This document shows positions 21,437 to 39,807 of a stretch of 64,000 bases of DNA, piece after piece. Source of the DNA: Chitinophaga pinensis DSM 2588. Its GTDB lineage: Bacteria > Bacteroidota > Bacteroidia > Chitinophagales > Chitinophagaceae. Both the position numbers and the translations under genes were made by a program. Numbering within the stretch: the first letter of the stretch is position 1; each line of letters begins with the position of its first letter. The DNA lies in NCBI RefSeq assembly GCF_000024005.1, contig NC_013132.1, positions 372,001-436,000 of the forward strand. The letters run 5' to 3'. A model generated the notes under the pieces. The model saw only the letters and a list, made by a program, of their open reading frames with translations. It did not search any database and was not told where the DNA came from.

Positions 21437-24022
21437 TTAGCGGTTCGTATTACTTACCACGATCTTCTGACGGTGAATGATCTTTTTATCATCAGTAACA
21501 GTCACAATATATACACCATCCGGCAGGGATGAAATGCTCAGACTATTGTAATTGCCTTTGATACGCTGAGACACTCTTTTCACACCAGCGATATTGTAGA
21601 TATCCACATTGTACACCTTCACTGCATCTGGCAGGGAAAGATTCAGTACGTTGCTCGCAGGGTTAGGCCAGATGTTCAACACAGCAGCTTTCTTTTCCGG
21701 TACAGCCGCTACAGCCGGTGCTAACAATGGCTGTGGATAGGTAAACGGAAAATCGATCTGTGCCTGTTTGAACTGCATCTCCAGTTGTTTGGTCCAACCA
21801 AATGCAGTATCAGCCTGCAGTTCCAGACTGAACTGAGCCGCGCCACTCCAGAAATGCACAAACTCACCCAGGTTCAGGTCACGGGTGTATTCGCCATTAT
21901 GTTGCGGGAAATACTGTGATAACAGCTCGAAATACCTGTTCAACGCAGCACTGGAATCCGCTCTGTCGTAGATCGGATAGAACCAGTCACGGAACCAGTA
22001 AGTATCCGGACTAGGGAAGCTCTCTGCTTTCACCACAAAGTCATTGTATGCCTGCTGTGCATCAGCTGACCATCCCAGACGTTTCATTACATCATAGATG
22101 AAGATTTCAGCCCATTTGCTATCTCCCCAGATCGGAAAAGAAGGTGAATTATGTACGCCTTTGCTGCCACCTTCTACGATATGGCCTACTTCATGAATAG
22201 ACGCGTGCAGGTTCCAGCCCTCACGGGTAGCCCAGCTACCACCAAGATCGCCCACATTCGCATAGTCATGAGAAGCATCGAATACATTCGCAGGGTGACC
22301 ACCGGAATAACCTGCTTTACTATGGAACACCATGTTCAGCTTAGGATCGCTGAAAGAACCGTAGTTCTGTTTTACATACTCCCATACATTCGTGAAATCC
22401 TGGTTCATCCAGGTAATAGACGGACTTACCGCCGCATCAAAATAGATGTTCACACTACTGTTAGAATAGTTCAGGGTCAATGGTTCTACATGCGCAAACC
22501 AATGTTCCTGCCATACTGATTTCGGTGTAGCCGTCAATGTGGTATTGTTGCCAGTTACCCATGCAGATGCACCATTCGCATTTTCTGCCCTGAGACGGTA
22601 ATAATATTTCGTCAGCGGAGACAGGTCGAGAGAATAGAAATGCGTCGTATTTACTGGTAATACAAATGCTGTGTTCCAGTTCAGCGTATCTGTCGTTCTT
22701 TCAAGACGGTAATTAGTTTCTGTACTTGCAGCATCCGCCCAATCCAGGATGATCTGGTTGCTCGATACCGACTGCGTCGTAAAGCCTGTCGGAGCAGCAG
22801 GAACACCTGTATTCACCGTACCTGTGCCGGTACCGATGATTTCGAATTCTGACAACTGAGTAATAGACGCGCCATTATTCGCAGTAATATTCAAACGGTA
22901 ATACTTATAAGAAGTTGTGTTAGGGAATACATAAGTACGTTTCTTATAACGGGCAGTAAACTGCTGGTCTGTTACTACCTGCAGGTTTGTCCAGTTAGTA
23001 CTGTCATTGGAACCCTGGAAGGTCCAGTTGCGTGGATCGCGATCTGATGCATCATTCGCAGAAGTAATGCTGTATTGTGTAGCTACGGCGCCACCTGGCA
23101 GGGAATAACCAATAGCAGTTGTAGCCGCCCACGCCAGGTATTTGGTATAAGGGCTGTTATCAAAAGCTTTATCCAATCCTTCAGCACCAGTTGTATTATA
23201 CGGATCGTTGAACTTTGCGTTCGTGTAATTGGTGATATCAAATCCGGAAGGAGCCACGCTTGTTTTCACAACATCGGAAGTATCTGCGGAAGATACACCT
23301 GTCGCATTTACCGCTCTTACGCGGTAGATAAAGCTGGTACCTGCACTCAGTGCGCTATCTGTGTAAGTAGTTGCATTTGCAGCAACAGTAGCACGTGTCA
23401 GGAAATTAACCGCATCCAGTGAGCTTTCGATACGGTAACCGGTTTCGTTGGTGGCATTGTCCGACCAGGTCAGGTTTATTTTATAACCTGATTGAACGGT
23501 GGCAGTCACATTCGTAGGTCCGGAAGCAGGTCCTGTCAATGTTCCCTGCAATTGCCACTCTGCTATCTGAATAGCGCCTGCGCCATTATTCGCAATAACA
23601 TTCAGGCGGTAAATAGTGTAAGCAGTTGTGTTGGTAAAGGAATAGGTTTTTGTCAGAAAACGACTGGCAAATGCCTGGTTGGTCTGCGTGTTCAACGTAG
23701 TCCATGTTTTACCATCATTCGATGCCTGCAGATTCCAGTTCTTTGGATCGCGGTCAGCATAATCGTTTGCAGAGGTAATTGAGTACTGGGTAACAACGGC
23801 GGATCTTGCCGCTTCGAATTGAACCCAAAGGGACGTTTTGTCAATGTAATACTTCGTACTGGTGTTGTTGTCTATCAACTTCGGATAGTTTTCCACGGCG
23901 TTGGAATTTCCATACTGCGCGGTCAGCGAACCTGCTGTAGACGTAATGTTCGTCTGAGCTAGTGCCGGCACGGTAGCGCATAGGAGGGCCACATACAAAG
24001 ATGCCTTTGTAAAATTAAGCAT
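21437..24022 (-). CDS. T9SS-secreted metallopeptidase of the plant basic-secretory-protein type with F5/8C and Fn3 modules
   Basis: 861-residue exoprotein. Order: signal peptide (1-22, cleaved near ALAQ); F5/8 type C-like domain (about 25-160); Fn3 (about 168-258); second F5/8C-like domain (about 265-400); Fn3 (about 410-500); BSP-type catalytic domain (about 505-765); and a T9SS sorting domain (about 785-861, with IWPNPASN and GVYIVTVTDDKK). The catalytic motif is His610-Glu-Val-Gly-His614, followed by VEGGSKG, a fit to a zinc HExxH site. It should be exported to the surface or medium through the type IX system, with the discoidin-like domains binding glycans. A lipoprotein paralogue of the catalytic domain lies at 36305-37237. 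Confidence 0.88.
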   Translation of the reverse strand: MLNFTKASLYVALLCATVPALAQTNITSTAGSLTAQYGNSNAVENYPKLIDNNTSTKYYIDKTSLWVQFEAARSAVVTQYSITSANDYADRDPKNWNLQASNDGKTWTTLNTQTNQAFASRFLTKTYSFTNTTAYTIYRLNVIANNGAGAIQIAEWQLQGTLTGPASGPTNVTATVQSGYKINLTWSDNATNETGYRIESSLDAVNFLTRATVAANATTYTDSALSAGTSFIYRVRAVNATGVSSADTSDVVKTSVAPSGFDITNYTNAKFNDPYNTTGAEGLDKAFDNSPYTKYLAWAATTAIGYSLPGGAVATQYSITSANDASDRDPRNWTFQGSNDSTNWTNLQVVTDQQFTARYKKRTYVFPNTTSYKYYRLNITANNGASITQLSEFEIIGTGTGTVNTGVPAAPTGFTTQSVSSNQIILDWADAASTETNYRLERTTDTLNWNTAFVLPVNTTHFYSLDLSPLTKYYYRLRAENANGASAWVTGNNTTLTATPKSVWQEHWFAHVEPLTLNYSNSSVNIYFDAAVSPSITWMNQDFTNVWEYVKQNYGSFSDPKLNMVFHSKAGYSGGHPANVFDASHDYANVGDLGGSWATREGWNLHASIHEVGHIVEGGSKGVHNSPSFPIWGDSKWAEIFIYDVMKRLGWSADAQQAYNDFVVKAESFPSPDTYWFRDWFYPIYDRADSSAALNRYFELLSQYFPQHNGEYTRDLNLGEFVHFWSGAAQFSLELQADTAFGWTKQLEMQFKQAQIDFPFTYPQPLLAPAVAAVPEKKAAVLNIWPNPASNVLNLSLPDAVKVYNVDIYNIAGVKRVSQRIKGNYNSLSISSLPDGVYIVTVTDDKKIIHRQKIVVSNTNR

Positions 24023-24237: not shown

Positions 24238-25668
24238 CTACAGGCGGACGCCAAAAACATCTTTTAATGCCTTCTTCGCCGCATGATAACCACACATACC
24301 ATGAATACCTCCACCGGGAGGTGTTGAAGAGGAACAAACGTAAATGCCCTTAGCAGGCGTCGTATAGGGTGACCATCTCAAAGCTGGGCGGGTGTAGAGT
24401 TGTGTAATATCCAGGAGACCACCATTAATATCTCCCCCGATATAATTAGGGTTATATGCTTCTACATCGGCGGTATTCATCACATGCCTGCCGATAATCA
24501 GATCCTTAAAACCGGGTGCAAAACGCTCCACCTGGTTTTCAATCGCGGCAGTCATGTCTCTGGTAGAACCATTCGGTACATGACAATAGCCCCAGGCCGT
24601 ATGCTTGCCTTCCGGAGCCCGGGTTTTATCAAAAATACTATGTTGTACAAACAAGGTATAAGGTAATTCAGGATGCTGACCATCCACGGTACGTTGCTCA
24701 TTGGTGGCTATCTCCTCAATGGTATTACCCAGGTGAATCGTACCTGCTTCTCTGCAAGCTGCCGCTGTAAAAGGAACGGGGCCATCCAGCGCCCAGTCTA
24801 CCTTAAATACGCCCATCCCGTATTTATAGCGTTTCAGCTGCCATTTATAAAATGAAGTAAATCTTTCGCCCGCAATCTGTAATAACTGCTTCGGCGTAAC
24901 GTCCAGTAACACTGCCTTCGAAGGCGGCAACTCCTTTAATGCCTTGACAAAGTTTCCTGTCACGATCTCTCCACCTAATGAAGTAAAATAAGCGCCCAAT
25001 GCATTGGCCAGCGACTGTGCGCCTCCTTTCGGCGCAGGCCATCCACTTACATGACTATTCGCCATTAACACCAGTCCTATCGCGGAAGTCGCAATATTTG
25101 TCAAAGGTTGTATCGCATGTGCAGCCACTCCTCCAAACAATCCACGTGCTTCCCTTGTCTTAAAACGCTTCGCCAGATGCATAGCAGAAGGTAATGCCTT
25201 CAATCCGAATTTAGCCATCGTTAACGGATGTTTCGGCAGCTGCAAAGGGCCCAGTATATCTTCAGAGAGATCTTTAAAATCTTGTAGTAAGGGACGAAAC
25301 AGCCGCTCATAAGTCTGACGGTCACTACCCAGTAACTCAGCCGTTTTCTCCAGGGAAGAATACAACACGGCCGCCGTTCCATCATCAAAAGGATGCGCAG
25401 CATCCGCTACAGGATGGAGAAAAGATAAGCCAAACTGCGCCAACGGCAACTGGCTAAAGAAAGGCGACGTCTGCGCCATAGGATGAATAGCAGAACAGAT
25501 ATCATGCGTAAATCCCGGCAATGTCAATTCCTTGGATCGTAAACCTCCACCGATCTCGTCACGGCCTTCTATCACAAGCACGGATAAACCCTGCTGTTGC
25601 AGGAGTATCGCTGCCGCGAGTCCGTTAGGTCCTGAGCCGATGACAATAGCGTCGTATGAATTCTTCAT
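24238..25668 (-). CDS. FAD-dependent oxidoreductase, phytoene-desaturase/PYROXD2-like
   Basis: 476-residue flavoprotein. The N-terminal dinucleotide-binding motif is GSGPNG (11-16) after a beta strand YDAIVI, followed by the second strand ending VIEGRDEIGGGLRS. The C-terminal FAD segment is GIYVCSSSTPPGGGIHGMCGYHAAKKAL. This is the amine-oxidase/carotenoid desaturase-like branch. The substrate is unknown; no carotenoid genes are nearby. It lies downstream of the two DoxX-like genes in the same direction, but 143 bp away across a heptamer inverted repeat, so co-transcription with the SoxCD-SusCD run is possible but not certain. No signal peptide is seen. Confidence 0.85.
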   Translation of the reverse strand: MKNSYDAIVIGSGPNGLAAAILLQQQGLSVLVIEGRDEIGGGLRSKELTLPGFTHDICSAIHPMAQTSPFFSQLPLAQFGLSFLHPVADAAHPFDDGTAAVLYSSLEKTAELLGSDRQTYERLFRPLLQDFKDLSEDILGPLQLPKHPLTMAKFGLKALPSAMHLAKRFKTREARGLFGGVAAHAIQPLTNIATSAIGLVLMANSHVSGWPAPKGGAQSLANALGAYFTSLGGEIVTGNFVKALKELPPSKAVLLDVTPKQLLQIAGERFTSFYKWQLKRYKYGMGVFKVDWALDGPVPFTAAACREAGTIHLGNTIEEIATNEQRTVDGQHPELPYTLFVQHSIFDKTRAPEGKHTAWGYCHVPNGSTRDMTAAIENQVERFAPGFKDLIIGRHVMNTADVEAYNPNYIGGDINGGLLDITQLYTRPALRWSPYTTPAKGIYVCSSSTPPGGGIHGMCGYHAAKKALKDVFGVRL

Positions 25669-25671
25669 AAA

Positions 25672-25808
25672 AATTAGGAATTAAGAATTAGGAATTAAGA
25701 ATTAGGCTTTTGCAAATAGCCTGATGACCATTTTATCAGCTGCAGGCATTTCAAAAGAAAGAAGGTCATTACACCTTATTCCTAATTCTTAATTCCTAAT
25801 TCCTAATT
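25672..25808. repeat. Inverted arrays of 7-bp repeats forming a long AT-rich hairpin
   Basis: Left arm: five heptamers alternating AATTAGG and AATTAAG (25672-25706). Right arm: four heptamers CCTAATT/CTTAATT (25781-25808). The inner 21 bp of each arm (25686-25706 with 25781-25801) pair perfectly and the next heptamer pairs 6 of 7, around a 74-nt centre. It fills nearly the whole gap between the DoxX-like and FAD genes. The same heptamer family fills the SusC-SusD gap at 30035-30104. It is either a leader or terminator structure or a small repeat element. Confidence 0.8.
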
Positions 25809-25811
25809 GTT

Positions 25812-27290
25812 TTAATACTGTCCTGCTTCTAATTTACTGGGTGACAGCAAATACTGCTTATCAACCCTGTCTAAAATTACGTAAATAGAATCTTTATTTT
25901 CATTTAAGCCGTAAAGAATGATCCGTGTATCACTCGGTCTTTCATAATGCAATACATACGGAGGATCTTTCTTCTTACTGGTATTCGGACGATCAGTCGC
26001 ATTCCGCCGCTGGCGTTCTCTGCCCTGATTCGCCTGACTCCTGTTCTTATCCCGCAATGCCAGCTCCTGTCTGGCTGTATCGGCTTCATAGTAGAAGAAC
26101 CTGCGTCTGCCAGCTACACCTGCCAGCTCAAAATTACGGTCCACATCGTTCTTAGGGGAACCGCCGCCATTACTCAGGTCAAGCCACACCGGTTTATTTA
26201 CCTGGTAAGTAATCGTAGACCATTTTTCAAATGTCACATTCTGCCAACGTACAGTATCCTGTGGTGAATAAGGGATTACCTGGTTATTCAAACGAAACTC
26301 TGTTACATTGTAATAACCTTTTGTACCAGCGATTCCTTTACTCACTGGTTGCTTATACGGATCATACAGGTAGTTCCACATCTGCAGATAAAATAGGATC
26401 ACGACAAATAACAGTACAGCGCCTCCTTTCAGGATATAACGGGAATACTGTTGCCATTTCTCTTTAAAGGAAGGATAATAATGTACAGGTATAGTATATC
26501 TTTCTAACACCAGCAGATTATAGATCTTCGGCACATCATATGCCAGTACAAACAATGCCAGTATTACAAAGTAAGCACTATACACATGCACTCCACCATC
26601 ATAAGCAAAGTTTACAAAGGTGATATTCGCCAATGCACCAGCCAGTAACACAGCGCCGATCGCAGCTGTACCTCTGAAGAATAAAAGCACACCAGCCAAT
26701 ACTTCTACGATACCCGCAAACACCTGGTACCAGGGTACGATACCAATAGACAACCAGTATATTTTCTGCGCCGTGAAATCACCAAAATTGGTATGCAGAT
26801 TAGAGATCGACGGATAAGGCATCTGTACAGGAAACAGCTTGGTATACCCAAAACCAATGATTCCGATACCCGCACGGTAACGTACAATCACCCGCAGCCA
26901 ATAGTACAGGATATTATATTCCTTTCTGCGGTCAAAAATGCTCCAGATTCCGGCGCCTGCTATCGCAATGATTAGTGCCGCCAGCCAGCTGGCATAACTG
27001 GCAATTCCCCAACGGCCACTTTCGGATTCTACATTCCATAAATTCGGCTGAAAACGCGCGATATCATACACATCCCTGTACTTCAGATGTATCCAGTCCA
27101 TCGTAAAAAGATGCTGATACCAGTTCCAGCTGGTCGGGATACTCATCAGCACAAAAAAGATAAAGGCAATACGAAACGCTACTCGCTGCCAGGTTTTCCA
27201 GGGCTTTGCAGCTGATGTAGTTGCTTCGGTATGCACTTCCGCTACGGGTGTTGCAGGTGCGGCAACAGTTAAATGAATTATATCAGACAT
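25812..27290 (-). CDS. DoxX-like membrane protein with C-terminal soluble domain (copy 2)
   Basis: 492 residues. An N-terminal soluble leader (1-32) is followed by helices at about 37-55, 95-115, 135-150, 175-200, 203-225 and 230-250; the segments GIIGFGYTKLFP and VEVLAGVLLFFRGTAAIGAVLL are of DoxX type. A further helix (about 288-310) precedes about 180 extracytoplasmic residues ending in LHYERPSDTRIILYGLNENKDSIYVILDRVDKQY. A DoxX-type membrane part plus a one-helix soluble part recalls the DoxD/DoxA subunits of archaeal thiosulfate:quinone oxidoreductase; that link is inference. It is a paralogue of the gene 10 nt upstream, from which it differs by a basic/Asn-rich insertion near residues 420-445. 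Confidence 0.75.
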   Translation of the reverse strand: MSDIIHLTVAAPATPVAEVHTEATTSAAKPWKTWQRVAFRIAFIFFVLMSIPTSWNWYQHLFTMDWIHLKYRDVYDIARFQPNLWNVESESGRWGIASYASWLAALIIAIAGAGIWSIFDRRKEYNILYYWLRVIVRYRAGIGIIGFGYTKLFPVQMPYPSISNLHTNFGDFTAQKIYWLSIGIVPWYQVFAGIVEVLAGVLLFFRGTAAIGAVLLAGALANITFVNFAYDGGVHVYSAYFVILALFVLAYDVPKIYNLLVLERYTIPVHYYPSFKEKWQQYSRYILKGGAVLLFVVILFYLQMWNYLYDPYKQPVSKGIAGTKGYYNVTEFRLNNQVIPYSPQDTVRWQNVTFEKWSTITYQVNKPVWLDLSNGGGSPKNDVDRNFELAGVAGRRRFFYYEADTARQELALRDKNRSQANQGRERQRRNATDRPNTSKKKDPPYVLHYERPSDTRIILYGLNENKDSIYVILDRVDKQYLLSPSKLEAGQY

Positions 27291-27300
27291 AACGTTGATT

Positions 27301-28647
27301 TTAGAGTTTAAGCGGTTTACGGCGACCTTCGATCAGTGGATATTGCTTATCGATCTTATCCAGTATAACATACACTGAATCCTTCTTCTCGTTGATACCA
27401 CTGAGGATAATACGGCTGCTGTCAGGTCTTGTATAATGCAGCTCCAGCTGTTCCTCATGATGATACCTGTTTTTATTCTGCAGCAACAAGACCTGCTTTG
27501 CTTCATCGATATGATAGCTGTAATAGTGCCTGCTGATCGATCCTGCCAGTTCGTAGTTACGGTCAGAATCATTCACAAATATTTCTTCCGTATTCGCCAG
27601 ATCCGGATGTACATAGCGATTAGAGCGTACGCTCAATGTCGCCCACGGCTCAAATACCACGTCTTTCCAACGCACGGTATCTGTCAGTGAATAGGGGATT
27701 TCCTGGTTATTGATGCGAAACTCCGTTACATTGTAAATACCGGCTGCTGCTGTCAGACCCGGCATATGCGGATACTGATAGCCCAGCTGTTTGTAACTCG
27801 CATAGGTCTTATAACCGTATAGTCCGACAAAGAAGAATATAAACAAGGTCTTCAACGCCAGTTTCAATCCCCGCTGCCACGGTTGCGGCAGATAGGGACG
27901 CACCGTATTCGGCGCTGTAGGCTGTTCAAGTGTCAGCAGATTGATAATACGTATAGTGTCATACTGTAACAGGAATAAAGCCAGTACTACCAGGTAAAAA
28001 CTGTATACATACTCCCCGCCTTCATATGCCAGGTTAGACATGAATACGTTACCGGTAAAGGTGATAATAATACCCGCGCCAATCGTAGAAGTTCTCCTAT
28101 GTAGTAATAACAGCCCCGCTACCGTCTCTACCAGACCCAGAAATGTTTCCATAGAAGGCACCACACCAGTGCTCATGGCGAAGATCTTCCAGGCTGACAG
28201 GTCACCGTATTGAGTATTGAGCTGACTGATAGAAGGGAAAGGTAATTGCTGCGGAAACAGCTTCAGTAAGCCATAAGCGATCACACCGATTGCCAGCCGA
28301 TACCGGACAATCACCCTCAACCAGTAATACAGCTGGTTGTATTCCTGTCGCCGTCTGTCCAGATAAGACCAGATCAGCGCACCTGCGATCGCGATAACAG
28401 CAGCTACGCCCCAGTCAGCAAAACTGCCGAAAGGACTATCCGTCGTTACAAAACGTGGCGTATAACGGGTCAGGTAAAAGATATCACGGAAACTCAATTC
28501 TCCCCAGTGAATCTGAAATAAGCCCGCATAATAGCGGATATCCAATGGTACACATTGGATAATGAAGTAAATGAAGAAAAAACGGAACAGCACCTTCCAG
28601 GATGCTTTCCACGTTTGTGGTGGTAATAAATTTGCCGGATGTGTCAT
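27301..28647 (-). CDS. DoxX-like membrane protein with C-terminal soluble domain (copy 1)
   Basis: 448-residue paralogue of the next gene. The same order is seen: helices over about 20-250 with GVIAYGLLKLFPQQLPFPSIS and VETVAGLLLLHRRTSTIGAGI, one more helix (about 270-290), then a soluble domain with GIYNVTEFRINNQEIPYSLTDTVRW and a closing SRIILSGINEKKDSVYVILDKIDKQYP. The conserved soluble-domain motifs in both copies argue that both are functional and may form a heterodimer. Located 38 nt after SusD in the SoxCD-SusCD run. Electron transfer to quinone is the suggested role, by analogy to DoxDA and the neighbouring SoxCD; no redox cofactor site is visible. Confidence 0.75.
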   Translation of the reverse strand: MTHPANLLPPQTWKASWKVLFRFFFIYFIIQCVPLDIRYYAGLFQIHWGELSFRDIFYLTRYTPRFVTTDSPFGSFADWGVAAVIAIAGALIWSYLDRRRQEYNQLYYWLRVIVRYRLAIGVIAYGLLKLFPQQLPFPSISQLNTQYGDLSAWKIFAMSTGVVPSMETFLGLVETVAGLLLLHRRTSTIGAGIIITFTGNVFMSNLAYEGGEYVYSFYLVVLALFLLQYDTIRIINLLTLEQPTAPNTVRPYLPQPWQRGLKLALKTLFIFFFVGLYGYKTYASYKQLGYQYPHMPGLTAAAGIYNVTEFRINNQEIPYSLTDTVRWKDVVFEPWATLSVRSNRYVHPDLANTEEIFVNDSDRNYELAGSISRHYYSYHIDEAKQVLLLQNKNRYHHEEQLELHYTRPDSSRIILSGINEKKDSVYVILDKIDKQYPLIEGRRKPLKL

Positions 28648-28685
28648 ACCTGCAGGGTTTATATAGTCAAGAAATCAATCTGTGT

Positions 28686-30029
28686 TTAGTAACCCGGATT
28701 AGGTTCCAGTGCATCGTCTGCACTCAGTTCGATAGCGGGTATCGGCATTACATATCGGCGTTCGTCCGTAACACCCAATACAGTACCTGCACGTCCTGTT
28801 CTTACCAGGTCGTACCAGCGGTGAGGTTCAAATGCGAACTCCAGTCTGCGCTCATTTTCGATCGCCAGGAGTATTTCACCCTGTGATACTGCCGTACTCC
28901 CGCTCAGTCCTGCTCTGTCTCTTACCGCATCCAGGTCAGCCAGCGCCCCAGACAGATTACCTTGTTGTGCACGTGCCTCCGCCCTGATCAGGTATTGTTC
29001 TGCGATACGCAGGACATAGGCCGGATCTGTCGCCGGACTGCGATAATAGAAATTGCCATACCAGAGCCCCTGGTTCGTAATAGCCACAGCCGCGTTTCTG
29101 TTACCGCCCACAGCCGGATTATTGATCAATGCGATAAAAGCGTCATTAGGCGCCCACTGACGGGTTCCATTATTGGCAGGGGGCTGCCAGTAGCCACGAT
29201 GTGCATTCGTATTAGTGGCGCTGTAGGAGATTTCGAAGATGGATTCGTCGGTCGCCACCACGTTGTTGGCAAAGAACGCGCTATAGGGCTTTAGAAGCCT
29301 GTATTTCGCGTCTTGTATCAATCTGGAGGAATATACCTCTGCCTGTTCCCAATTGCGCTGATAGAGGTGAAAACGGGCTAACAATGCCCATACAGTTTTA
29401 CGGGTGGCACGATAGCGGTTAGTAGTCTCAGGTAAAAGCGGTTCCGCCATCTGCAGATCTTTCAGTACCTGGGCATAAGTCTGCTCCAGCGTACTGCGTT
29501 TCAGCCCTTTTGTATCATTGATATCGGAAGTCGCTTTCACGACCAGCTGTACACCTCCCCAGGTACGGGCCAGGTCAAAATAGGCCAGCGCACGTACAAA
29601 GTAAGCCTCTCCCAGCAGGGCGTTTCTTTCATCTGCTGTCAGGGTAGCATCGTTTACACCCGGCAGTTTATCAATTACCTGGTTAGCCCGGTTGATAGTG
29701 GAATAGATGGCCGACCATGCCGTCGCTATATTCGTATTATCCGCCTTTACCGCATGCGATATAAACTGCTGGATAATCGACTGTGAACCTGTCCACTGAA
29801 TATTATCTCCGGAGAGATACCCGATCGTCTGAAACAGTGCGCCATAATAATCATCGTCGCCCAACTGCCGGTATATACCACGTACAGCTGTCTGCGCAGA
29901 GGTTTTATCAACGATCGTCGTTTCATCTGAAACGGAGTCTTTCGGTTGCACATCCAGAAAGTCACTGCAGGAAACCAGCAAAAAGACAATCGGTAATATG
30001 CGGATCAATAATTTTATATTCTGCTGCAT
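28686..30029 (-). CDS. SusD/RagB family outer-membrane lipoprotein
   Basis: 447-residue surface lipoprotein, signal with Cys21 (FLLVSC) followed by SDFLDVQP, the usual SusD start. TPR-rich SusD body: TAWSAIYSTINRANQVID, LLGEAYFVRALAYFDLARTWGG, and C-terminal IAEQYLIRAEARAQQGNLSGALADLDAVRDRAG with ENERRLEFAFEPHRWYDLVRTG. Such proteins form a lid over the SusC barrel and bind the cargo. The cargo is usually a glycan, but here the partners are SoxCD and DoxX-like genes and not hydrolases. It follows its SusC by 74 nt, a gap made almost wholly of 7-bp repeats. Confidence 0.95.
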   Translation of the reverse strand: MQQNIKLLIRILPIVFLLVSCSDFLDVQPKDSVSDETTIVDKTSAQTAVRGIYRQLGDDDYYGALFQTIGYLSGDNIQWTGSQSIIQQFISHAVKADNTNIATAWSAIYSTINRANQVIDKLPGVNDATLTADERNALLGEAYFVRALAYFDLARTWGGVQLVVKATSDINDTKGLKRSTLEQTYAQVLKDLQMAEPLLPETTNRYRATRKTVWALLARFHLYQRNWEQAEVYSSRLIQDAKYRLLKPYSAFFANNVVATDESIFEISYSATNTNAHRGYWQPPANNGTRQWAPNDAFIALINNPAVGGNRNAAVAITNQGLWYGNFYYRSPATDPAYVLRIAEQYLIRAEARAQQGNLSGALADLDAVRDRAGLSGSTAVSQGEILLAIENERRLEFAFEPHRWYDLVRTGRAGTVLGVTDERRYVMPIPAIELSADDALEPNPGY

Positions 30030-30034
30030 AACGC

Positions 30035-30104
30035 AATTCTTAATTCTTAATTCTTAATTCTTAATTCTTAATTCTTAATTCTTAATTGTTAATTCCTAAT
30101 TCCT
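30035..30104. repeat. Ten tandem 7-bp repeats filling the SusC-SusD gap
   Basis: AATTCTT is repeated seven times (30035-30083), then AATTGTT and two AATTCCT (to 30104), touching the SusC stop codon at 30104-30106. The SusD ATG is only 6 nt away on the other side. Repeat number may set the spacing, or the translation, of SusD relative to SusC. Confidence 0.9.
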
Positions 30105-33100
30105 TACAATGTCACATTTACCCCAAACTGTAAAGTCCTCGACTGTGGGGGTGTACCCAGGTCAATCCCCTGTACCGTCTGCGAAGCCGATACGTTTGCT
30201 TCCGGATCAGGACCGGTATACTTCGTCAGCAACCAGAGATTATTACCGGCAAAGTAGACGCGCAGCGCATCAATATGCCAGCGGCTCGTCAATGCCTTCG
30301 GCAGGGTATAACCCAATGTCAGCGCCTGTAAACGCAGGAAGGAACCATTTTCGATAAAGCGGCTGTTCTGCTCCAGTGTGTAGTTATTACCTACTTTCGT
30401 CAGTCTTGGTACATCTGTCACATCGCCCTCTTTCTGCCAGCGTTTCAGCTGACTGGCAAACAATACCCTGTTCGCGTCACGGGTACCGCCACCTTCTCCA
30501 AAGAAGCGGTTCAGGTTTAACACCTTATTACCGTACTGGTAGTTGAACTGTACAGACGCATCAAATGACTTCCAGGAAAAACTGTTATTGATACCGCCAA
30601 AGAACTTAGGCAATGCATTCCCTACAATCTGCCTGTCTGCCACTGTAATGCTGCCATCTCCATTTACATCTTCAAACACCGCATTACCTGTCTTAGGATC
30701 TACATACAGTTGTTTGTACATCCAGAATGAATACATGGAATACCCCTGCTGCATCCGGATCCAGTCACGGTTATACTGGGTAATAGGCACCGGCAGTTTC
30801 TCTACCTTGTTTTTGTTGCCGGAAATAGTGAAGGAAGTATTCCAGGTGAAATCGCCTCTTTTGATATTTTCTGAACGGATAGCCACCTCATATCCCTTGT
30901 TGCTGATCTCTCCTGCATTGGAGTAGTAAGTGGAATAACCGGTATTGGATGGTACAGGTAGCTGTAACAGTACGTCAGAGGTTTTCTTCGAATAAACATT
31001 CAGCTCCACAGAAAGACGTCCATCCAGGAAGGCAGCATCCAGTCCGATATTGGCCTGTTTGGTCTTCTCCCAACGCAGATCAGGATTCGATAACTGTAAG
31101 GGTGCTGTAGCTGGTTTATCGCCACCTGTCTCGGCATCCGGATAACCACTGGCGCCTGTCCACAAACCACGGGCAGCAAAATCATTGATACCGCTCTGGT
31201 TACCGGTTACGCCATAGCTGGCTCTTAATTTCAGGTCACTGAGAAACTGCGCATCTTTCAGGAACTGCTCTTCCTTCAGACGCCATGCGGCGCCTACTGC
31301 AGGGAAGTAACCCCAGCGGTGATTACTGCCAAAACGGGAAGAACCATCAGCACGGAAACTGAATTCGAGATAGTATTTACTGTCGTAGTTATAGTCGAGT
31401 CGGGAAAAGAAAGATGCCAGCGTACCCTGTGTCCAGGTCTGACCGGAAGTACGGGTAGAGGCAGATGAAATGTCCGTATAGGAATTATTCGGAAATCCTG
31501 TACCCTGTGCAAAAGTGCGTTTCAGGGTATTCTGTTGTACCGTATTACCGACTACCGCACCGAAGGTATGTCCGCGGCCGAGTTTCTTACGATAAGATAA
31601 GGTCTGCTCATTGATCCAGGTACTGTTCTGTGTGATGGAAGATGTTGCCAGACCATAAGTCGGTGCAGCACCCAGCTGTGTTTTATCATTCCAGTATTCA
31701 GACTCGTCGTAGTTGTTATAATCAACGCTCCAGCTGGTACGGAACTTCAGATCCGGCAGGATTTCGGCTTCTGCATACAGGTTGCCGATATAACGAAGGC
31801 TCACCGTATTTACATCGTAGTTATCCAGCAGCACCTGCAGGTTGTCAAAACCGGCCCAGCGGGCAGGCGTACCGTCGGCATTCGTTTCCGGCAAGTAAGT
31901 AGGCGTGTGCAGTGCGGATTGCAGCAAACCTCCCTGCGGACCATCACCTGCGCGTGCCTGGTTCCTGTAGGAACGTGTGATACCATTGCTCACACCTACC
32001 TGTACACGATCACTGATCTTATGATCGATATTGAGTTTCAGACTGGCTCTTTCGAAGAACACTGGCCGGATATTCGCTTCCTGTTTGGTATAACCTGCAC
32101 CAATGTAGAATTTGGTTTTATCGCCGCCACCATTCAGGGACAGATCGTAGTTAGCCAGTTGTCCGGTACGGAATAATTCACCCAATCTGTCATAGGTTTT
32201 TTGTTCTTCCGGTAATCCGCGGCCACCTTCTGCTACAGGACGAAAAGGTCTGTTGGCAAAAGTCTGATTAGACGCAGGATTATCTATCCCTGTATTGATC
32301 CAGTATTCATTGATTAATGCCGCATGTTCCGGACCAGTGGTCAGATCCCACAATTCCGGCGCCTTGGCAAAGCCATGTGATACATTCACGTTGACTTTGG
32401 TTTTTTGTCCGTAGTTACCACGTTTGGTCGTCACGATCACGACACCATTGGCGCCACGTGAACCATATATTGCCGTTGCACTGGCATCTTTCAGTACCTC
32501 TATACTGGCGATATCGCCCGGGTTGATATCTGCAATAGGAGAGGTGGCACGGCCGCCGGTGCTGACAGTCTGCAGACTGGTATTATTCACAAACACACCA
32601 TCTACTACATACAGCGGATCATTACCGGCATTGATAGAAGTCGTACCGCGTACACGTACAAATACACCATCCCCTGGTACGCCGGTATTAGAATTGATTT
32701 GCAGACCAGCGGCTTTACCCTGTAGCTGAGCATCAAAACCTGCTACGGGAATATTCTTTGTTTCAGAAGTATTGATTGTAGACACAGAGCTGGTAAGGTT
32801 CCGGCGCTCCTGGGTACCATACCCGACAATCACGACCTCACTTAGCTTTTTATCGTCATTTTCCAGTTGAACATGAAAAGAGGCATTGCTACCCACTTTT
32901 ATTTCCTGTGGCTTATACCCGATATAAGTAAAAACGAGTACGGCATCTGCGGGCGCATTCAGTTCGAAAGACCCGTCTATACGGGTAAGAGCGCCGCGTT
33001 TGGAGCCTTTCACAATAACGCTTACACCAGGGAGTTGCTGTCCGTTAGTATCAGTGACTTTTCCTTTTACCGGGATATCTGCAGGTAGGCGGTCAGATAG

Positions 33101-33235
33101 TGTACTGCTGACTGCATCCGGAAAAACAGCGCCCCTCATGGCAGTGCTGCCCAGTACAGCGGGAATCAGCAGAAAGCCGGCATTCCGGACGAATCTGCGC
33201 ATCACAGGGTGTCTGTAATAGAAGGTGGTTGACAT
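30104..33235 (-). CDS. SusC/RagA family TonB-dependent transporter
   Basis: 1043-residue outer-membrane barrel. Signal region 1-36; CarboxypepD_reg-like domain about 55-130 (VKGKVTDTNGQQLPGVSV and VLVFTYIGYKPQ); TonB box region LSEVVIVGYG near 133-142; plug about 145-270 with NDPLYVVDGVFV and IEVLKDASATAIYGSRGANGVVIVTTKRG; then a barrel with the C-terminal aromatic end. There is no STN domain, so no direct sigma/FecR signalling is expected. With SusD downstream it forms an energised importer. It sits 32 nt after the SoxC-like gene, which is the unusual feature of this locus. Confidence 0.95.
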   Translation of the reverse strand: MSTTFYYRHPVMRRFVRNAGFLLIPAVLGSTAMRGAVFPDAVSSTLSDRLPADIPVKGKVTDTNGQQLPGVSVIVKGSKRGALTRIDGSFELNAPADAVLVFTYIGYKPQEIKVGSNASFHVQLENDDKKLSEVVIVGYGTQERRNLTSSVSTINTSETKNIPVAGFDAQLQGKAAGLQINSNTGVPGDGVFVRVRGTTSINAGNDPLYVVDGVFVNNTSLQTVSTGGRATSPIADINPGDIASIEVLKDASATAIYGSRGANGVVIVTTKRGNYGQKTKVNVNVSHGFAKAPELWDLTTGPEHAALINEYWINTGIDNPASNQTFANRPFRPVAEGGRGLPEEQKTYDRLGELFRTGQLANYDLSLNGGGDKTKFYIGAGYTKQEANIRPVFFERASLKLNIDHKISDRVQVGVSNGITRSYRNQARAGDGPQGGLLQSALHTPTYLPETNADGTPARWAGFDNLQVLLDNYDVNTVSLRYIGNLYAEAEILPDLKFRTSWSVDYNNYDESEYWNDKTQLGAAPTYGLATSSITQNSTWINEQTLSYRKKLGRGHTFGAVVGNTVQQNTLKRTFAQGTGFPNNSYTDISSASTRTSGQTWTQGTLASFFSRLDYNYDSKYYLEFSFRADGSSRFGSNHRWGYFPAVGAAWRLKEEQFLKDAQFLSDLKLRASYGVTGNQSGINDFAARGLWTGASGYPDAETGGDKPATAPLQLSNPDLRWEKTKQANIGLDAAFLDGRLSVELNVYSKKTSDVLLQLPVPSNTGYSTYYSNAGEISNKGYEVAIRSENIKRGDFTWNTSFTISGNKNKVEKLPVPITQYNRDWIRMQQGYSMYSFWMYKQLYVDPKTGNAVFEDVNGDGSITVADRQIVGNALPKFFGGINNSFSWKSFDASVQFNYQYGNKVLNLNRFFGEGGGTRDANRVLFASQLKRWQKEGDVTDVPRLTKVGNNYTLEQNSRFIENGSFLRLQALTLGYTLPKALTSRWHIDALRVYFAGNNLWLLTKYTGPDPEANVSASQTVQGIDLGTPPQSRTLQFGVNVTL

Positions 33236-33267
33236 ATTACTGATTGGTTTTTTTTATGCTGATAGTG

Positions 33268-34485
33268 TTATTTCCATTTTTCCGGTCTGTATACGACTTC
33301 TCCGCCCCGTTTTACCAGCCATGCTGTTACGGGATTCAGGTGATATCCTGTGCCTATACCTCTTGCTGCGATCAGCTCTTTGAGTGAAGGTTGTGTATAG
33401 CCTGTTTCATCTGTTGCGCGACTCATGATCTCTGTTGTATCGCCATCCCATTGCCATAGATACCTGAAGTAGGTATGCGCTTTATCCATGACGGGTTCCT
33501 GCAGCCGGGCGGCCTGCCAGGTTTTCCCTGCGTTGGTACTGACTTCCACACCCGTTATTCTTCCACGTCCGCTCCAAGCAATACCCCTGATTTCTACCCA
33601 GCCTTTCTGCAGTTGTACAGGATACGCAGGATAGGTAATGATAGAGCGGGCATCCATCGTAAAACTGAACTGACGGATCTTCCCATCTTTTACAGGCTCC
33701 GTATATTTCGATGTTTCTTCACGGGTCATAAAAGGACCGTCTGACAATTCAATACGGCGCAGCCATTTGATACTGGTGTTGCCTTCCCACCCCGGTAACA
33801 GCAGCCGGGCCGGGTATCCCTGCTGGGGGCGAATGGCCTCCCCATTTTGTGCATAAACAATCATAGCATCGTCCCATCCTTTGCTGACGGGAATGCTACG
33901 CGTCATGACGGCGGCGTCTGATCCTTCGGCAAGGAACCAGGTAGCCTTTGGATCCACGCCTACTTCCCTGAAAATAGTAGATAGCATCACCCCGGTCCAT
34001 TCGCTCTGACTGGTGAGCCCGCAGATATCCTGCGGCGTAATCGTTTCTTTATCCGGCTTACGGAAGTTGCCGGAGCATTCGATAAAACAGATTCTGGATA
34101 CGGAAGGAAATCGTTTAAGATCAGCCAGGGTGAAGACGGTAGGACGGTCTACCATACCGTGTATGGTGAGTTCATAGGTATTGGGATCTATGGCGGGTAC
34201 ACCGGCATGATGACGTTCGAAATGCAGATCAGACGGTGTAATGATTCCGTAAAGGTCCTGCAACGGCGTCTGCGATGAAGTGAGTGATGCTTTTCGCTGC
34301 GGATGTTCAAACGGCGATCTCGTACCCAAAATGCCAGGTAGTGGCCCCACCTGTTTGGTCGGGTCTATAGCAGCTTCGGGAATACCTGTCTGCACCATTT
34401 TGCCAAAGGATGACTTAACCATAGCTACAGCAGCTGTGGCGGCACCTCCGAGCAAAAGGCGACGACGCGTCATCTTCTGGCTCAT
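33268..34485 (-). CDS. soxC: SoxC-like molybdopterin sulfite/sulfane dehydrogenase subunit
   Basis: 405-residue Mo-cofactor enzyme of the sulfite oxidase family. A twin-arginine-type signal (MTRRRLLLGGAATAAVA, 5-21) suggests folded export to the periplasm. The Mo domain contains HFERHHAGVPAIDPNTYELTIHG-type residues (88-110), FPSVSRICFIECSGN with putative Mo ligand Cys137, and WEGNTSIKWLRRIE. A C-terminal dimerisation domain spans about 275-390. The HHAGVPAIDP and FPSVSR signatures resemble SoxC, the Mo subunit of SoxCD sulfane dehydrogenase, more than MsrP or eukaryotic sulfite oxidase. It lies 42 nt after a SoxD-like cytochrome. No soxXA, soxYZ or soxB is present in the window, so the true substrate could be sulfite or another sulfur compound. 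Confidence 0.85.
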   Translation of the reverse strand: MSQKMTRRRLLLGGAATAAVAMVKSSFGKMVQTGIPEAAIDPTKQVGPLPGILGTRSPFEHPQRKASLTSSQTPLQDLYGIITPSDLHFERHHAGVPAIDPNTYELTIHGMVDRPTVFTLADLKRFPSVSRICFIECSGNFRKPDKETITPQDICGLTSQSEWTGVMLSTIFREVGVDPKATWFLAEGSDAAVMTRSIPVSKGWDDAMIVYAQNGEAIRPQQGYPARLLLPGWEGNTSIKWLRRIELSDGPFMTREETSKYTEPVKDGKIRQFSFTMDARSIITYPAYPVQLQKGWVEIRGIAWSGRGRITGVEVSTNAGKTWQAARLQEPVMDKAHTYFRYLWQWDGDTTEIMSRATDETGYTQPSLKELIAARGIGTGYHLNPVTAWLVKRGGEVVYRPEKWK

Positions 34486-34527
34486 ATTATGTTCTGTTAA
34501 GAATTACAGTTTTATGCGACACATATG

Positions 34528-35103
34528 TTATTCATATGGTCCATCCCCTCCCTTCCGGTTGTCTGTGACATAGTATTTTCGGGCCGGCATAACAATGCCG
34601 GGCAAGGTTTTCGCATTCATGACAGCAGCACTATCTATCAGTCTGTTAGCATACAGCAGATATGCCGTGACACTATATACTTCATTATCTGATAAGGAGC
34701 CGGGTGCATTAAAAGGCATGGCACGTCGTACGTAATCGAATACGGTCGTAGCATACGGCCAGTAATTCCCGATGGCCTTCACCCGTTGCGGAGCACGGTC
34801 AAAAGGAACTGCATCTGCCGTATCTGGCGCTACCAGTATGTTGAATGGTCCTTCTACACCAGTCACACCATGACAGGAAGCGCACTTTGTCGCATAGACA
34901 ACGAGCCCTTGCTGTACAGAGCCACTACCTGCTGGCAATCCTTTTCCATCGGGACGAATAGCTATTGCTTTTGCTGCGATCTCCTGCTGTGTAGCAGGAC
35001 GACCATAGCCGAAATGCGTTGGCGCAGTATTGGCACGGCGTTCACATGAAATCATAGCAATACCTGCAACGCAGGCCCAATAAGGCATTCGTAGCTTAAA
35101 CAT
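34528..35103 (-). CDS. SoxD-like c-type cytochrome lipoprotein
   Basis: 191-residue monohaem cytochrome c, the presumed electron acceptor of the adjacent Mo enzyme. Haem motif Cys74-Ala-Ser-Cys77-His78, with candidate axial Met129 in YVRRAMPF. The segment RRAMPF....SLSDNEVYSVTAYLL is a pattern I associate with SoxD. The N-terminus ends MISC (Cys20), a plausible lipobox, so it is probably membrane-anchored in the periplasm. First gene of the run; a -7 element and the 27-bp dyad lie upstream. The gene symbol is withheld because only one haem domain is present, while classical SoxD has two. Confidence 0.85.
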   Translation of the reverse strand: MFKLRMPYWACVAGIAMISCERRANTAPTHFGYGRPATQQEIAAKAIAIRPDGKGLPAGSGSVQQGLVVYATKCASCHGVTGVEGPFNILVAPDTADAVPFDRAPQRVKAIGNYWPYATTVFDYVRRAMPFNAPGSLSDNEVYSVTAYLLYANRLIDSAAVMNAKTLPGIVMPARKYYVTDNRKGGDGPYE

Positions 35104-35207
35104 CAGATAATGAGACTTGGATTCTTATGGTTGATTACAATGCGCAGAGTGTAGCCATATCGGCTACTGCATTTGTCTCTTGGTGGGAGCACAATAATAA
35201 TCTGATG

Positions 35208-35215
35208 CAAATATA
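35208..35215 (-). promoter_or_regulatory. -7 element of the SoxCD-SusCD operon
   Basis: On the minus strand this reads TATATTTG, a match to TAnnTTTG, about 105 nt upstream of the cytochrome ATG. No TTG occurs at the -33 position. The 27-bp dyad covers that place instead, which suggests an activator-dependent promoter. Confidence 0.55.
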
Positions 35216-35229
35216 TACAGTAGAAATTT

Positions 35230-35256
35230 AAAAGTCTACTATTTGTGTAGACTTTT
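35230..35256. promoter_or_regulatory. 27-bp operator-like dyad, site A
   Basis: Perfect 10-bp arms AAAAGTCTAC and GTAGACTTTT with a 7-nt centre. The core is AGTCTA-N9-TAGACT. Its centre lies 28 bp upstream of the -7 element. It aligns base for base with site B at 47518-47544. Confidence 0.75.
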
Positions 35257-36304: not shown

Positions 36305-37237
36305 TTAATACGTGATATTCGGGAAGGTCTGCCTTGCCTGCTGGAACTGTGTTTCCCAGCTGGCGGGCCATCCGAAGGCGATAGTCGCCTGTGCTTTCAG
36401 ATTGACGCCTGCAGCGCCGCTCCAGAAATGCACAAACTCTCCCCAGTTCATATTACGGGCATAGTTGCTGCCATTTTTAGGAAAGTACTGTGCTAACAAA
36501 GCGAAGAATTTATTCAGTGTGGCGGTACCGCCATGCTGACTGTAAATAGGAAAGAACCAGTTCCTGAACCAGCGGGTATTCGCTACCGGGAAGTTATCGA
36601 CCTTATTCCACATGTCATTATACCAGGCATTCGCGATAGTCGTCCAACCCAGTGATTTGTAAACATCATACTGATAAATTTCCATCCACTTACTGTCACC
36701 CCACAGCGGGAATGCAGGCGAATTGTGAAATCCTTTGGAGGCGCCTTCCACGATATGCCCTACTTCATGAGCGGTAATATGGAGCGGTTGCCCGGTGCTG
36801 TCAGCCCATGAGCCGTTTAGTCCTACGTCAATGACATTGCGGAAATCATGGCTGGCGTCAAAATAAGTTGAAGGATGTCCGCCACTATACTTATTTTCAT
36901 GCAGGATTACGAACAGGCGTTTATCCGGACCGAATTCACCGTATGTTCTTTTGGTATAGCGCCAGATGCTATCCAGACGGCGATAAGGCCACGTAACATT
37001 TGTAGGCATATCATTGTCATAATACACCGCAATGTGATCATTGTAATAAACACGCTTTAGGAGCTGTACGTGTTCAAACCAGTGTTCCTGCCAGGTCGCG
37101 GGCGGTATTTCTGCCGCTGCTTCTTCGGTCACCGGCTTTTTTGATTGAAGGGAGTCATTGTCTTTTTTACAACTTCCCAGTAAAAACGTGGATGCCATAA
37201 GGCCTAAAAGAACGATTAATTGAGGGCTCTTTTTCAT
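36305..37237 (-). CDS. Lipoprotein metallopeptidase of the basic-secretory-protein type
   Basis: 310-residue lipoprotein with signal ending LLGSC (Cys23). The body is one BSP-type catalytic domain (about 45-305) with zinc motif His157-Glu-Val-Gly-His161 followed by VEGASKG. It shares WQEHWF, KYSGGHPSTYFDASHDF-like, FPLWGDSKW, WFRNWFFPIY and GEFVHFWSGAA segments with the 861-residue protein at 21437-24022, but has no F5/8C, Fn3 or T9SS modules, so it stays membrane-anchored. The family is presumed proteolytic in plants and bacteria. A 13-bp imperfect hairpin (37283-37312) sits in its leader. Confidence 0.87.
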   Translation of the reverse strand: MKKSPQLIVLLGLMASTFLLGSCKKDNDSLQSKKPVTEEAAAEIPPATWQEHWFEHVQLLKRVYYNDHIAVYYDNDMPTNVTWPYRRLDSIWRYTKRTYGEFGPDKRLFVILHENKYSGGHPSTYFDASHDFRNVIDVGLNGSWADSTGQPLHITAHEVGHIVEGASKGFHNSPAFPLWGDSKWMEIYQYDVYKSLGWTTIANAWYNDMWNKVDNFPVANTRWFRNWFFPIYSQHGGTATLNKFFALLAQYFPKNGSNYARNMNWGEFVHFWSGAAGVNLKAQATIAFGWPASWETQFQQARQTFPNITY

Positions 37238-39102: not shown

Positions 39103-39807
39103 ATGAGACACCGAATTTTATTGGTCGAAGATGAAGCTGATCTGGGTAATGTAGTCAAGCAATACCTGGAGTTAATGGACTTCGAAGTAAACTGGCAGCC
39201 AAACGGCAGCGATGCACTGGAAGAATTCAAGAGAGCACCTGAACTATACCACATTCTCCTGATTGACGTCAACCTTCCCGGCATGGATGGCTTTGAGCTG
39301 GCCGAACACATTGTGAAAATCAACAACCAGGTACCATTCCTGTTCCTCACCGCACGCGGTGAAAAAACCGATCGTCTCAACGGTTTGAAAATAGGAGCGG
39401 ATGATTATGTTGTAAAGCCTTTTGATATCGACGAACTCGTACTGCGTATCCGTAATATCATCAAACGCAAACAGCCTTCTGCAGCGCCTGAAGTGGTGAA
39501 AGCTAAAAACGTCATTATCATCGGCAATACACAATTGTACGTCGATTCACTGAAACTTGTTACAGAGCAGGGTGATGAAATTGTGCTCACACCAAGAGAA
39601 TGCGACCTGCTGGTATTATTCTTCCACAACGTCAACCGTGTCATCAAACGGGAAGAGATCCTGACGAAGGTCTGGGGATCGAATGATTACTTCGTAGGGC
39701 GTAGTCTGGATGTGTTTATCTCCAGGTTCAGAAAGTATTTCCAGCAGAATCCGGGTATCAGTATCAAAAACGTATACGGGATCGGCTTTGTATTCAACGT
39801 AAAATAA
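39103..39807 (+). CDS. OmpR/PhoB-family response regulator
   Basis: 234-residue transcription factor, cognate partner of the kinase that ends 58 nt upstream. Receiver 1-120: acidic VEDE, Asp55 in LLIDVNLPG, Thr in LFLTAR, Lys105 in VVKPF. Trans_reg_C winged helix about 140-232, with VLTPRECDLLVLFFHNVNRVI-type residues and a recognition region in GRSLDVFISRFRKYF. All catalytic receiver residues are present. It converges on the JmjC gene; no clear terminator was found between them. Confidence 0.95.
   Translation: MRHRILLVEDEADLGNVVKQYLELMDFEVNWQPNGSDALEEFKRAPELYHILLIDVNLPGMDGFELAEHIVKINNQVPFLFLTARGEKTDRLNGLKIGADDYVVKPFDIDELVLRIRNIIKRKQPSAAPEVVKAKNVIIIGNTQLYVDSLKLVTEQGDEIVLTPRECDLLVLFFHNVNRVIKREEILTKVWGSNDYFVGRSLDVFISRFRKYFQQNPGISIKNVYGIGFVFNVK

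Follow-up and report, generated by a model that had tools for sequence, protein, structure and literature searches.

SusC-SusD pairs are importers of the outer membrane known for glycans and peptides. SoxC and SoxD of the Sox system have been solved as a complex from Paracoccus pantotrophus (PDB 2xts). SoxCD is described as capable of sulfite oxidation in a passage of one report (PMC5336275), and the role of soxCD genes that occur without other sox genes is called not clear in a section of a 2019 study (PMC6704655). The present study concerns a locus of Chitinophaga pinensis DSM 2588 that joins both kinds of genes. It lies in a stretch of 64,000 nucleotides (NC_013132.1, positions 372,001 to 436,000), which is termed the window, and positions are numbered from its first letter. 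Seven minus-strand genes at 24238-35103, with gaps of 42, 32, 74, 38, 10, and 143 bp, encode a SoxC-SoxD pair, a SusC-SusD pair, two paralogous membrane proteins designated Dox1 and Dox2, and an FAD enzyme; the open reading frames (ORFs), coordinates, and strand given by an earlier sequence-only reading were all reproduced. The cassette is conserved and linked to sulfur genes, and the grouping of its genes is not due to chance. Judging from their gene content, bacteria with this cassette appear to import and oxidize a sulfur compound. If this is true, such a conserved set would extend the range of SusCD importers by one class of nutrients, and soil Bacteroidota would gain a new source of energy or sulfur. 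The cassette also supplies the question of orphan soxCD with a gene neighborhood and named cultured strains. No description of it was found in the open-licence literature searched, as judged mostly from search listings. The genes are as follows.

34528..35103, minus strand: SoxD-like c-type cytochrome with one CxxCH heme motif and an apparent signal peptide (PDB 2xts_B, 2e-31)
33268..34485, minus strand: SoxC-family molybdopterin enzyme with a twin-arginine-like start, Cys137, and Arg142 (TIGR04555, PDB 2xts_A, alignment, and tree)
30104..33235, minus strand: SusC TonB-linked outer-membrane transporter (TIGR04056, 878 bits)
28686..30029, minus strand: SusD outer-membrane lipoprotein (PF14322 and PF07980; SusD structures matched by sequence)
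27301..28647, minus strand: Dox1, membrane protein and paralogue of Dox2 (46% identity, alignment A1; no Pfam match)
25812..27290, minus strand: Dox2, membrane protein whose helices include a four-helix DoxX-like part and whose C-terminal lipocalin-like barrel is predicted to be periplasmic
24238..25668, minus strand: FAD-dependent oxidoreductase, CrtI/CrtO-like (PF13450 and PF01593; no signal peptide seen)

SusC and SusD are adjacent and exceeded their Pfam and NCBIfam cut-offs. The matches of the FAD enzyme to solved structures were restricted to its N-terminal part. A Pfam scan detected no glycoside hydrolase, lyase, or other carbohydrate-active enzyme among the seven genes.

The core of the locus is SusC-SusD-Dox1-Dox2, and SoxD-SoxC is its commonest partner. 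Dox2 matches below 1e-100 were found in 14 of 147 Chitinophagaceae genomes, including that of the window (any match in 70, mostly weak), matches up to 1e-60 in 67/200 and 47/201 genomes of two further families, and matches up to 1e-50 in 4/395 genomes of a class sample. We read the best-matching place of each genome for 65 of the 67 (G1001 and G1060 were omitted), all 47, and 13 Chitinophagaceae (E<1e-100), together with 8 second places. Three of these 133 loci (L295-L297) lacked a pair and were dropped, which left 130; the window locus is outside this number, and L169-L171 were not counted. Genes were counted by tblastn, since a count by ORF runs (SoxC in 80/129) missed genes under overlapping ORFs (L203, L216). 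The loci share kinship, and p-values are thus descriptive and not tests. SusC and SusD (>38% identity) were each present in 129 of the 130 loci, the exception (L234) being truncated at a contig end, and both were located upstream of the Dox pair in 127. The SusC proteins that adjoin Dox (125 proteins) were 43-65% identical to the window SusC, whereas the 23 other SusC proteins in these loci had a median of 33% (range 25-58%), which indicates the same importer type each time and not any SusCD. The same loci contained the FAD gene in 87, SoxD in 84, SoxC in 83, a YeiH-type exporter gene in 55, an S51 peptidase gene in 35, DUF1684 in 15, a persulfide dioxygenase-rhodanese gene (PDO) in 9, and the gene of a protein with a CGC motif in 7. 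Since core pairs without SoxC are common (47/130), Dox1-Dox2 are more closely tied to SusCD than to SoxCD.

The cassette was also recovered from the SoxC side, using the best 80 of 379 loci from a SoxC scan of species genomes, in which some contigs end early. Within the flanks examined, all 80 contained SoxD, 73 contained Dox2, 69 Dox1, 68 SusD, 66 SusC, and 61 the FAD gene. The SusC-SusD-Dox1-Dox2-SoxD-SoxC set occurs in records named Chitinophaga, Mucilaginibacter, Pedobacter, Dyadobacter, Spirosoma, Larkinella, and others. This is also the commonest order, with the FAD and YeiH-type genes following either Dox2 or SoxC. In the window and nine related loci, the order is permuted and SoxD-SoxC is placed first. 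The sequence-only reading had asked whether the order cytochrome-Mo enzyme-SusCD-DoxX recurs in other Bacteroidota and had named homologues without SusCD neighbors in all other genomes as evidence against it. The set was present in most SoxC loci, usually in a different order, and most of them retained SusCD. SoxC is rare in the phylum (above the cut-off in 3/395 sampled genomes and 6/147 Chitinophagaceae). The closest named SoxC proteins were those of Chitinophaga sp. YR627 (99% identity) and C. pinensis YS-16 (97%). A Dox2 search at E up to 1e-50 of one SoxDC genome from another family (G393) gave no match.

Two further arrangements were noted among these loci. On a plasmid of Spirosoma oryzicola (L120, 2173-13146) and in L070, another SusCD stands with an amidohydrolase, an LLM flavin oxidoreductase, a permease, and the cytochrome and SoxC genes, forming a second SusCD-linked set. 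In L077, L078, L101, L104, L188, and L206 (L094 partly), the genes of a second SusCD and a DUF1684 protein stand between Dox2 and SoxD, usually accompanied by that of a TPR protein.

The Mo enzyme scored 480.7 bits against NCBIfam TIGR04555 (curated cut-off, 420) and matched P. pantotrophus SoxC at 4e-87. In a tree of 45 rows (38 SoxC and 7 sulfite oxidase rows; some branches were long), the SoxC rows split from the sulfite oxidase rows (100/100). All 28 rows of the Bacteroidota type, including one from a metagenome-assembled genome (MAG) titled Williamsia, grouped in a single clade (100/99), which was embedded in orphan rows from Proteobacteria and a single row from Deinococcota (91/99). Three SoxC proteins from Sox operons, all of Rhodobacterales, formed their own clade (100/100), with the Bacteroidota-type rows outside. 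The earlier assignment of this enzyme to SoxC holds at the level of the family, and the enzyme is placed apart from the clade of the three Sox-operon proteins compared. Cys137 would be the molybdenum ligand by family membership. The cysteine motif read CSGNFR, CAGNFR, or CSGNYR in 79/79 ORFs of the SoxC-centered loci, each with an arginine at Cys+5, which we take to be the substrate arginine of sulfite oxidases; the arginine was found in 81 of 84 in the partly overlapping genome loci, the other 3 being without the motif pattern. It aligns with that of chicken sulfite oxidase and was present in 6/6 distant sulfite oxidase-type proteins and in 0/10 non-Bacteroidota SoxC rows. One CxxCH motif was found in 78/78 SoxD homologue ORFs, and two in the 2/2 Sox-operon SoxD proteins examined. 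A lipoprotein signal was seen by eye in the window SoxD and lipobox-like sequences in only 22/78 homologues, and we do not claim that SoxD is a lipoprotein. SoxY was found in none of 60 chosen SoxC-bearing genomes, with a positive control in 3/3 records; SoxX, SoxA, and SoxZ were not searched. SoxB above the cut-off was also found in 0/60, with weaker matches in 41/60 (the best at 315 bits against 550). The window genome gave no match to SoxY, with a working control, and none to SoxB with E up to 0.001; for soxX and soxA, no genome-wide search was made.

Several of the variable partners of the core are sulfur genes. In 9/130 loci from two families, a secreted protein with metallo-beta-lactamase (MBL) and rhodanese domains, PDO, follows the Dox pair in the place of SoxCD. 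The THxHAD motif and the rhodanese cysteine loop were retained in 9/9, with twin-arginine-like starts, and one of these proteins matched 3tp9 (1e-61), ETHE1, and BpPRF. No locus contained both SoxC and PDO, 83 contained SoxC only, 9 PDO only, and 38 neither (Fisher p 6e-5). The YeiH-type gene (PF03601) was absent from all 9 PDO loci in contrast to its presence in 55 of the 121 others, as expected if PDO forms sulfite already outside. In passages of the respective reports, YeiH is required for sulfite resistance in Salmonella (PMC12880088) and is termed a sulfite exporter in Hyphomicrobium, in which its gene was up 526-fold with thiosulfate (PMC12423496). Rarer partners, which ORF clusters placed in between one and five loci each (one or two members of each family were scanned), were TauE, the cysteine dioxygenase CDO_I, a multi-rhodanese protein, a single rhodanese beside PDO, a sulfatase with its FGE maturase, a sodium:sulfate symporter family protein, and a pyridoxal phosphate (PLP) enzyme of Cys/Met metabolism. 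In Olivibacter sitiensis (L099:1620-8815), Dox2 and SoxD are separated by genes for MoaA, ModABC, MoeA, MoaE, MoaCB, and MoeB, and this set for molybdenum cofactor and molybdate ties cofactor supply to the run.

The CGC protein is secreted and approximately 255 amino acids long, and its motif was present in all of the best 120 of 185 homologues, none of which had a functional name. It was encoded in 5/9 PDO loci, two loci with neither enzyme, and one SoxCD cassette (L158:11369-12136, L159, L160, L162, L229, L234, and L235, and L099:12643-13407). In Pfam, it matched no family above the cut-off, and neither SoxY nor SoxZ was matched at E up to 1. It is a candidate sulfur carrier or metal site.

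We favor, with confidence and doubt in roughly equal measure, the view that this is a locus resembling a polysaccharide utilization locus (PUL), whose products import an organosulfur compound and oxidize the sulfur in it to sulfate via sulfite. The seven genes would form one operon, and the cargo would contain sulfur and most likely be an organic molecule (a thiol, persulfide, or sulfonate). By family, SusC-SusD would carry it across the outer membrane. At the inner membrane, Dox1 and Dox2 may act on it, Dox2 having a predicted periplasmic lipocalin-like domain, and the sulfur of the cargo would end up as sulfite. The orphan SoxC-SoxD would then convert sulfite to sulfate in the periplasm, as the family, the arginine, and the partner genes suggest. 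Electrons would pass through one-heme SoxD, the expected outlet as a c-type cytochrome, to the respiratory chain. The arginine at Cys+5, the one-heme SoxD, the lack of SoxY and of SoxB above the cut-off, the capacity of SoxCD for sulfite oxidation, and the reports on YeiH together favor sulfite as the SoxCD substrate, with sulfane sulfur as a possible one. The sequence-only reading had proposed an importer that feeds periplasmic sulfur oxidation ending in a DoxX-type quinone reductase. Its genetic tie is borne out by the recurrent set, the sulfur partner genes, and the SoxC family, and its suggestion of an organosulfur compound or sulfite as the substrate fits the new evidence; the quinone-reductase end is not supported. 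Somewhat more tentatively, we speculate that SusC-SusD-Dox1-Dox2 may be the common part of a hitherto undescribed class of loci for sulfur utilization in Bacteroidota. In these, a dedicated importer and a lipocalin-tailed DoxX-like pair, which would remove reduced sulfur or transfer it at the inner membrane, would be combined with interchangeable sulfur-oxidizing modules, namely, the orphan SoxCD, the secreted PDO-rhodanese with the CGC carrier-like protein, and YeiH export.

A number of observations weigh against oxidation of imported organosulfur through sulfite. The orphan SoxC proteins outside Bacteroidota also lack the arginine at Cys+5. YeiH is not enriched with SoxC (33/83 with SoxC and 22/47 without, p 0.46), and the Pfam scan found no YeiH, TauE, or sulfite-producing gene in the window run; the remainder of the genome was not searched. 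Persulfide dioxygenase yields sulfite and does not use it, and its exchange with SoxCD thus suits a sulfane dehydrogenase at least equally. Moreover, a passage of a published survey counts SoxC and PDO together in 263 species (PMC9959259), and the exclusion is therefore per locus, not per genome. Neither enzyme was within reach in 38/130 core loci. SoxDC also occurs without the cassette SusCD or an intact Dox gene in the flanks examined of L055, L092, and L118 (a Dox2-like fragment remains in L118), with a different SusCD and no Dox in the flanks of L070 and L094, and with SusCD but without Dox in L100. Of five proteobacterial orphan SoxCD regions examined, three lacked a clear organosulfur gene; the other two adjoin organosulfur genes, which counts in favor of the organosulfur reading. 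On one Pseudomonas aeruginosa plasmid (L302), orphan soxC and the cytochrome gene stand between TauD-type dioxygenases, a sulfurtransferase, MFS transporters, and a sulfate permease.

The best-surviving alternative is that SoxCD acts as a sulfane dehydrogenase, oxidizing protein- or thiol-bound sulfane sulfur from the imported compound, with another protein in the place of SoxYZ. Membership of TIGR04555 agrees with this, as does the exchange with PDO-rhodanese in 9 loci. According to a passage on Cupriavidus pinatubonensis, PDO oxidizes the sulfane sulfur that accumulates after the loss of SoxCD (PMC9959259). The secreted CGC protein in 5/9 PDO loci and in the L099 cassette may be the replacing protein. 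However, its gene was found in only 1/80 SoxC-centered loci and it gave no Pfam match to SoxY or SoxZ, SoxY was not found in 60/60 genomes, and the sulfite-oxidase-type arginine was present in 79/79. We consider this alternative unlikely, but deserving of attention.

Alternatively, SusCD-Dox1-Dox2 may serve another nutrient, with SoxCD merely detoxifying sulfite freed nearby. The 47 core loci without SoxC agree with this, and non-sulfur partners are also recurrent, as S51 peptidase and DUF1684 genes join some loci and TPR proteins were found. However, the enzyme that replaces SoxCD is again a sulfur enzyme, and the permuted order of the window clade holds all seven genes together. This explanation appears improbable.

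We regard a thiosulfate:quinone oxidoreductase of the DoxX type coupled to SoxCD, the chain end of the sequence-only reading, as distinctly improbable. Its description of two DoxX-like proteins stands for two membrane proteins; the DoxX label is weak, because searches of Pfam and NCBIfam with E up to 0.1 gave no family for either protein, DoxX (PF07681) included. When 80 homologues were compared with Pfam (E up to 1), 10 matched DoxX (best E 0.084) and 38 matched MauE (best E 0.0074). DoxD (PF04173) and DoxA (PF07680) gave no match in either window protein and were absent from the families of the 80 homologues. A profile comparison with one protein (G196), labeled DoxD through its DoxD match and with a second half that is likely the DoxA part from its length, gave a probability of 5.6%, although a single sequence is a weak test. 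The C-terminal domain of Dox2, which the sequence-only reading had proposed to compare with DoxA, became a lipocalin-like barrel in the structure model; no DoxA structure was compared. Dox2 contains no cysteines. A Foldseek search of its fold against PDB gave no match at E up to 0.001, and we drew no function from middling fold matches to vitamin K carboxylase and NACHO. Dox1 and Dox2 are distant relatives of DoxX at most. A chance neighborhood, to which the very common SusCD pairs of this group of genomes might have given rise, is refuted by the upstream position of SusC and SusD in 127 of the 130 loci and by the identity of the Dox-side SusC proteins to the window SusC (43-65%, against a median of 33% for the 23 others).

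The organization of the run in C. pinensis is compatible with the operon assumed for organosulfur oxidation. The Bacteroidetes -7 promoter motif is TAnnTTTG. Three features were found upstream of SoxD.

35230..35256, minus strand: palindrome AAAAGTCTAC-N7-GTAGACTTTT, candidate operator, directly upstream of the -7 box
35208..35215, minus strand: -7 promoter box TATATTTG, 112 bp ahead of the SoxD start
35104..35207, minus strand: conserved leader with a small hairpin, aligned in 10 sequences

Within 250 bp upstream, the -7 box was found for SoxD only and for none of the other six genes, against a pattern frequency of 0.27 per kb on the cassette strand of the window. This single box is compatible with one transcript and is no proof of it. 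The box, palindrome, and leader are common to the window and nine loci, eight of Chitinophaga and one from a MAG titled Flavihumibacter (L043), and were seen in these close relatives only. The box was present in 10/10 aligned sequences. The palindrome occurs once in the window (expected, 0) and was retained in the nine loci, with small changes in two. The leader had a mean column identity of 88% over the 10 sequences; pairing in its hairpin was kept, with changes on both sides in 2 of 21 predicted pairs. The leader folded no better than shuffled sequences (z -0.52). Its model (R1) matched 5/76 sources searched, all five being its training sequences, and gave no match in Chitinophaga sp. SYP-B3965 (L051). 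In Rfam, the window had no match at the gathering score and the leader none near it (E up to 5). A word of the leader recurs at 39583 with one mismatch. This copy lies within a coding frame, and 3/100 shuffles equaled the number of matches; we took it as chance.

Two related secreted proteins, presumably basic-secretory-protein-like, are encoded one on each side of the cassette (36305-37237 and 21437-24022). The former had no Pfam match, and the latter contains fn3, F5/8 type C, and sorting-tail domains. A protein of the 21437-24022 type follows the FAD gene in 9/9 permuted loci, and one of the 36305-37237 type was present in 3/9.

In comparison with known systems, the cassette shares with SoxCD of P. 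pantotrophus the homology of SoxC and SoxD over most of their length and the pairing of the genes. It differs in one heme instead of two, the arginine at Cys+5, the separate clade, the order SoxD-SoxC, and genomes in which SoxY was not found and SoxB did not exceed the cut-off. The orphan proteobacterial SoxCD pairs compared (plasmids of P. pantotrophus DSM 2944, Methylobacterium nodulans, Caballeronia, and P. aeruginosa) likewise have the one-heme SoxD, fall on the same side of the tree (91/99), and have no other sox gene annotated in the stretches read. However, those stretches are without annotated SusCD or Dox genes, and their SoxC lacks the arginine. The thiosulfate:quinone oxidoreductase DoxDA resembles Dox1 and Dox2 weakly, in a possible four-helix DoxX-like part, whereas these proteins have no DoxD or DoxA match and Dox2 has a lipocalin-like tail. 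Persulfide dioxygenase-rhodanese proteins (BpPRF, 5ve3; 3tp9) have the MBL and rhodanese domains of the proteins that replace SoxCD in 9 loci; they are not in the window cassette, and the cassette type has twin-arginine-like starts. Lastly, the locus resembles PULs in a SusC-SusD pair that stands in a run with catabolic genes, but no glycoside hydrolase or lyase is among the seven, and several of the partners are sulfur genes.

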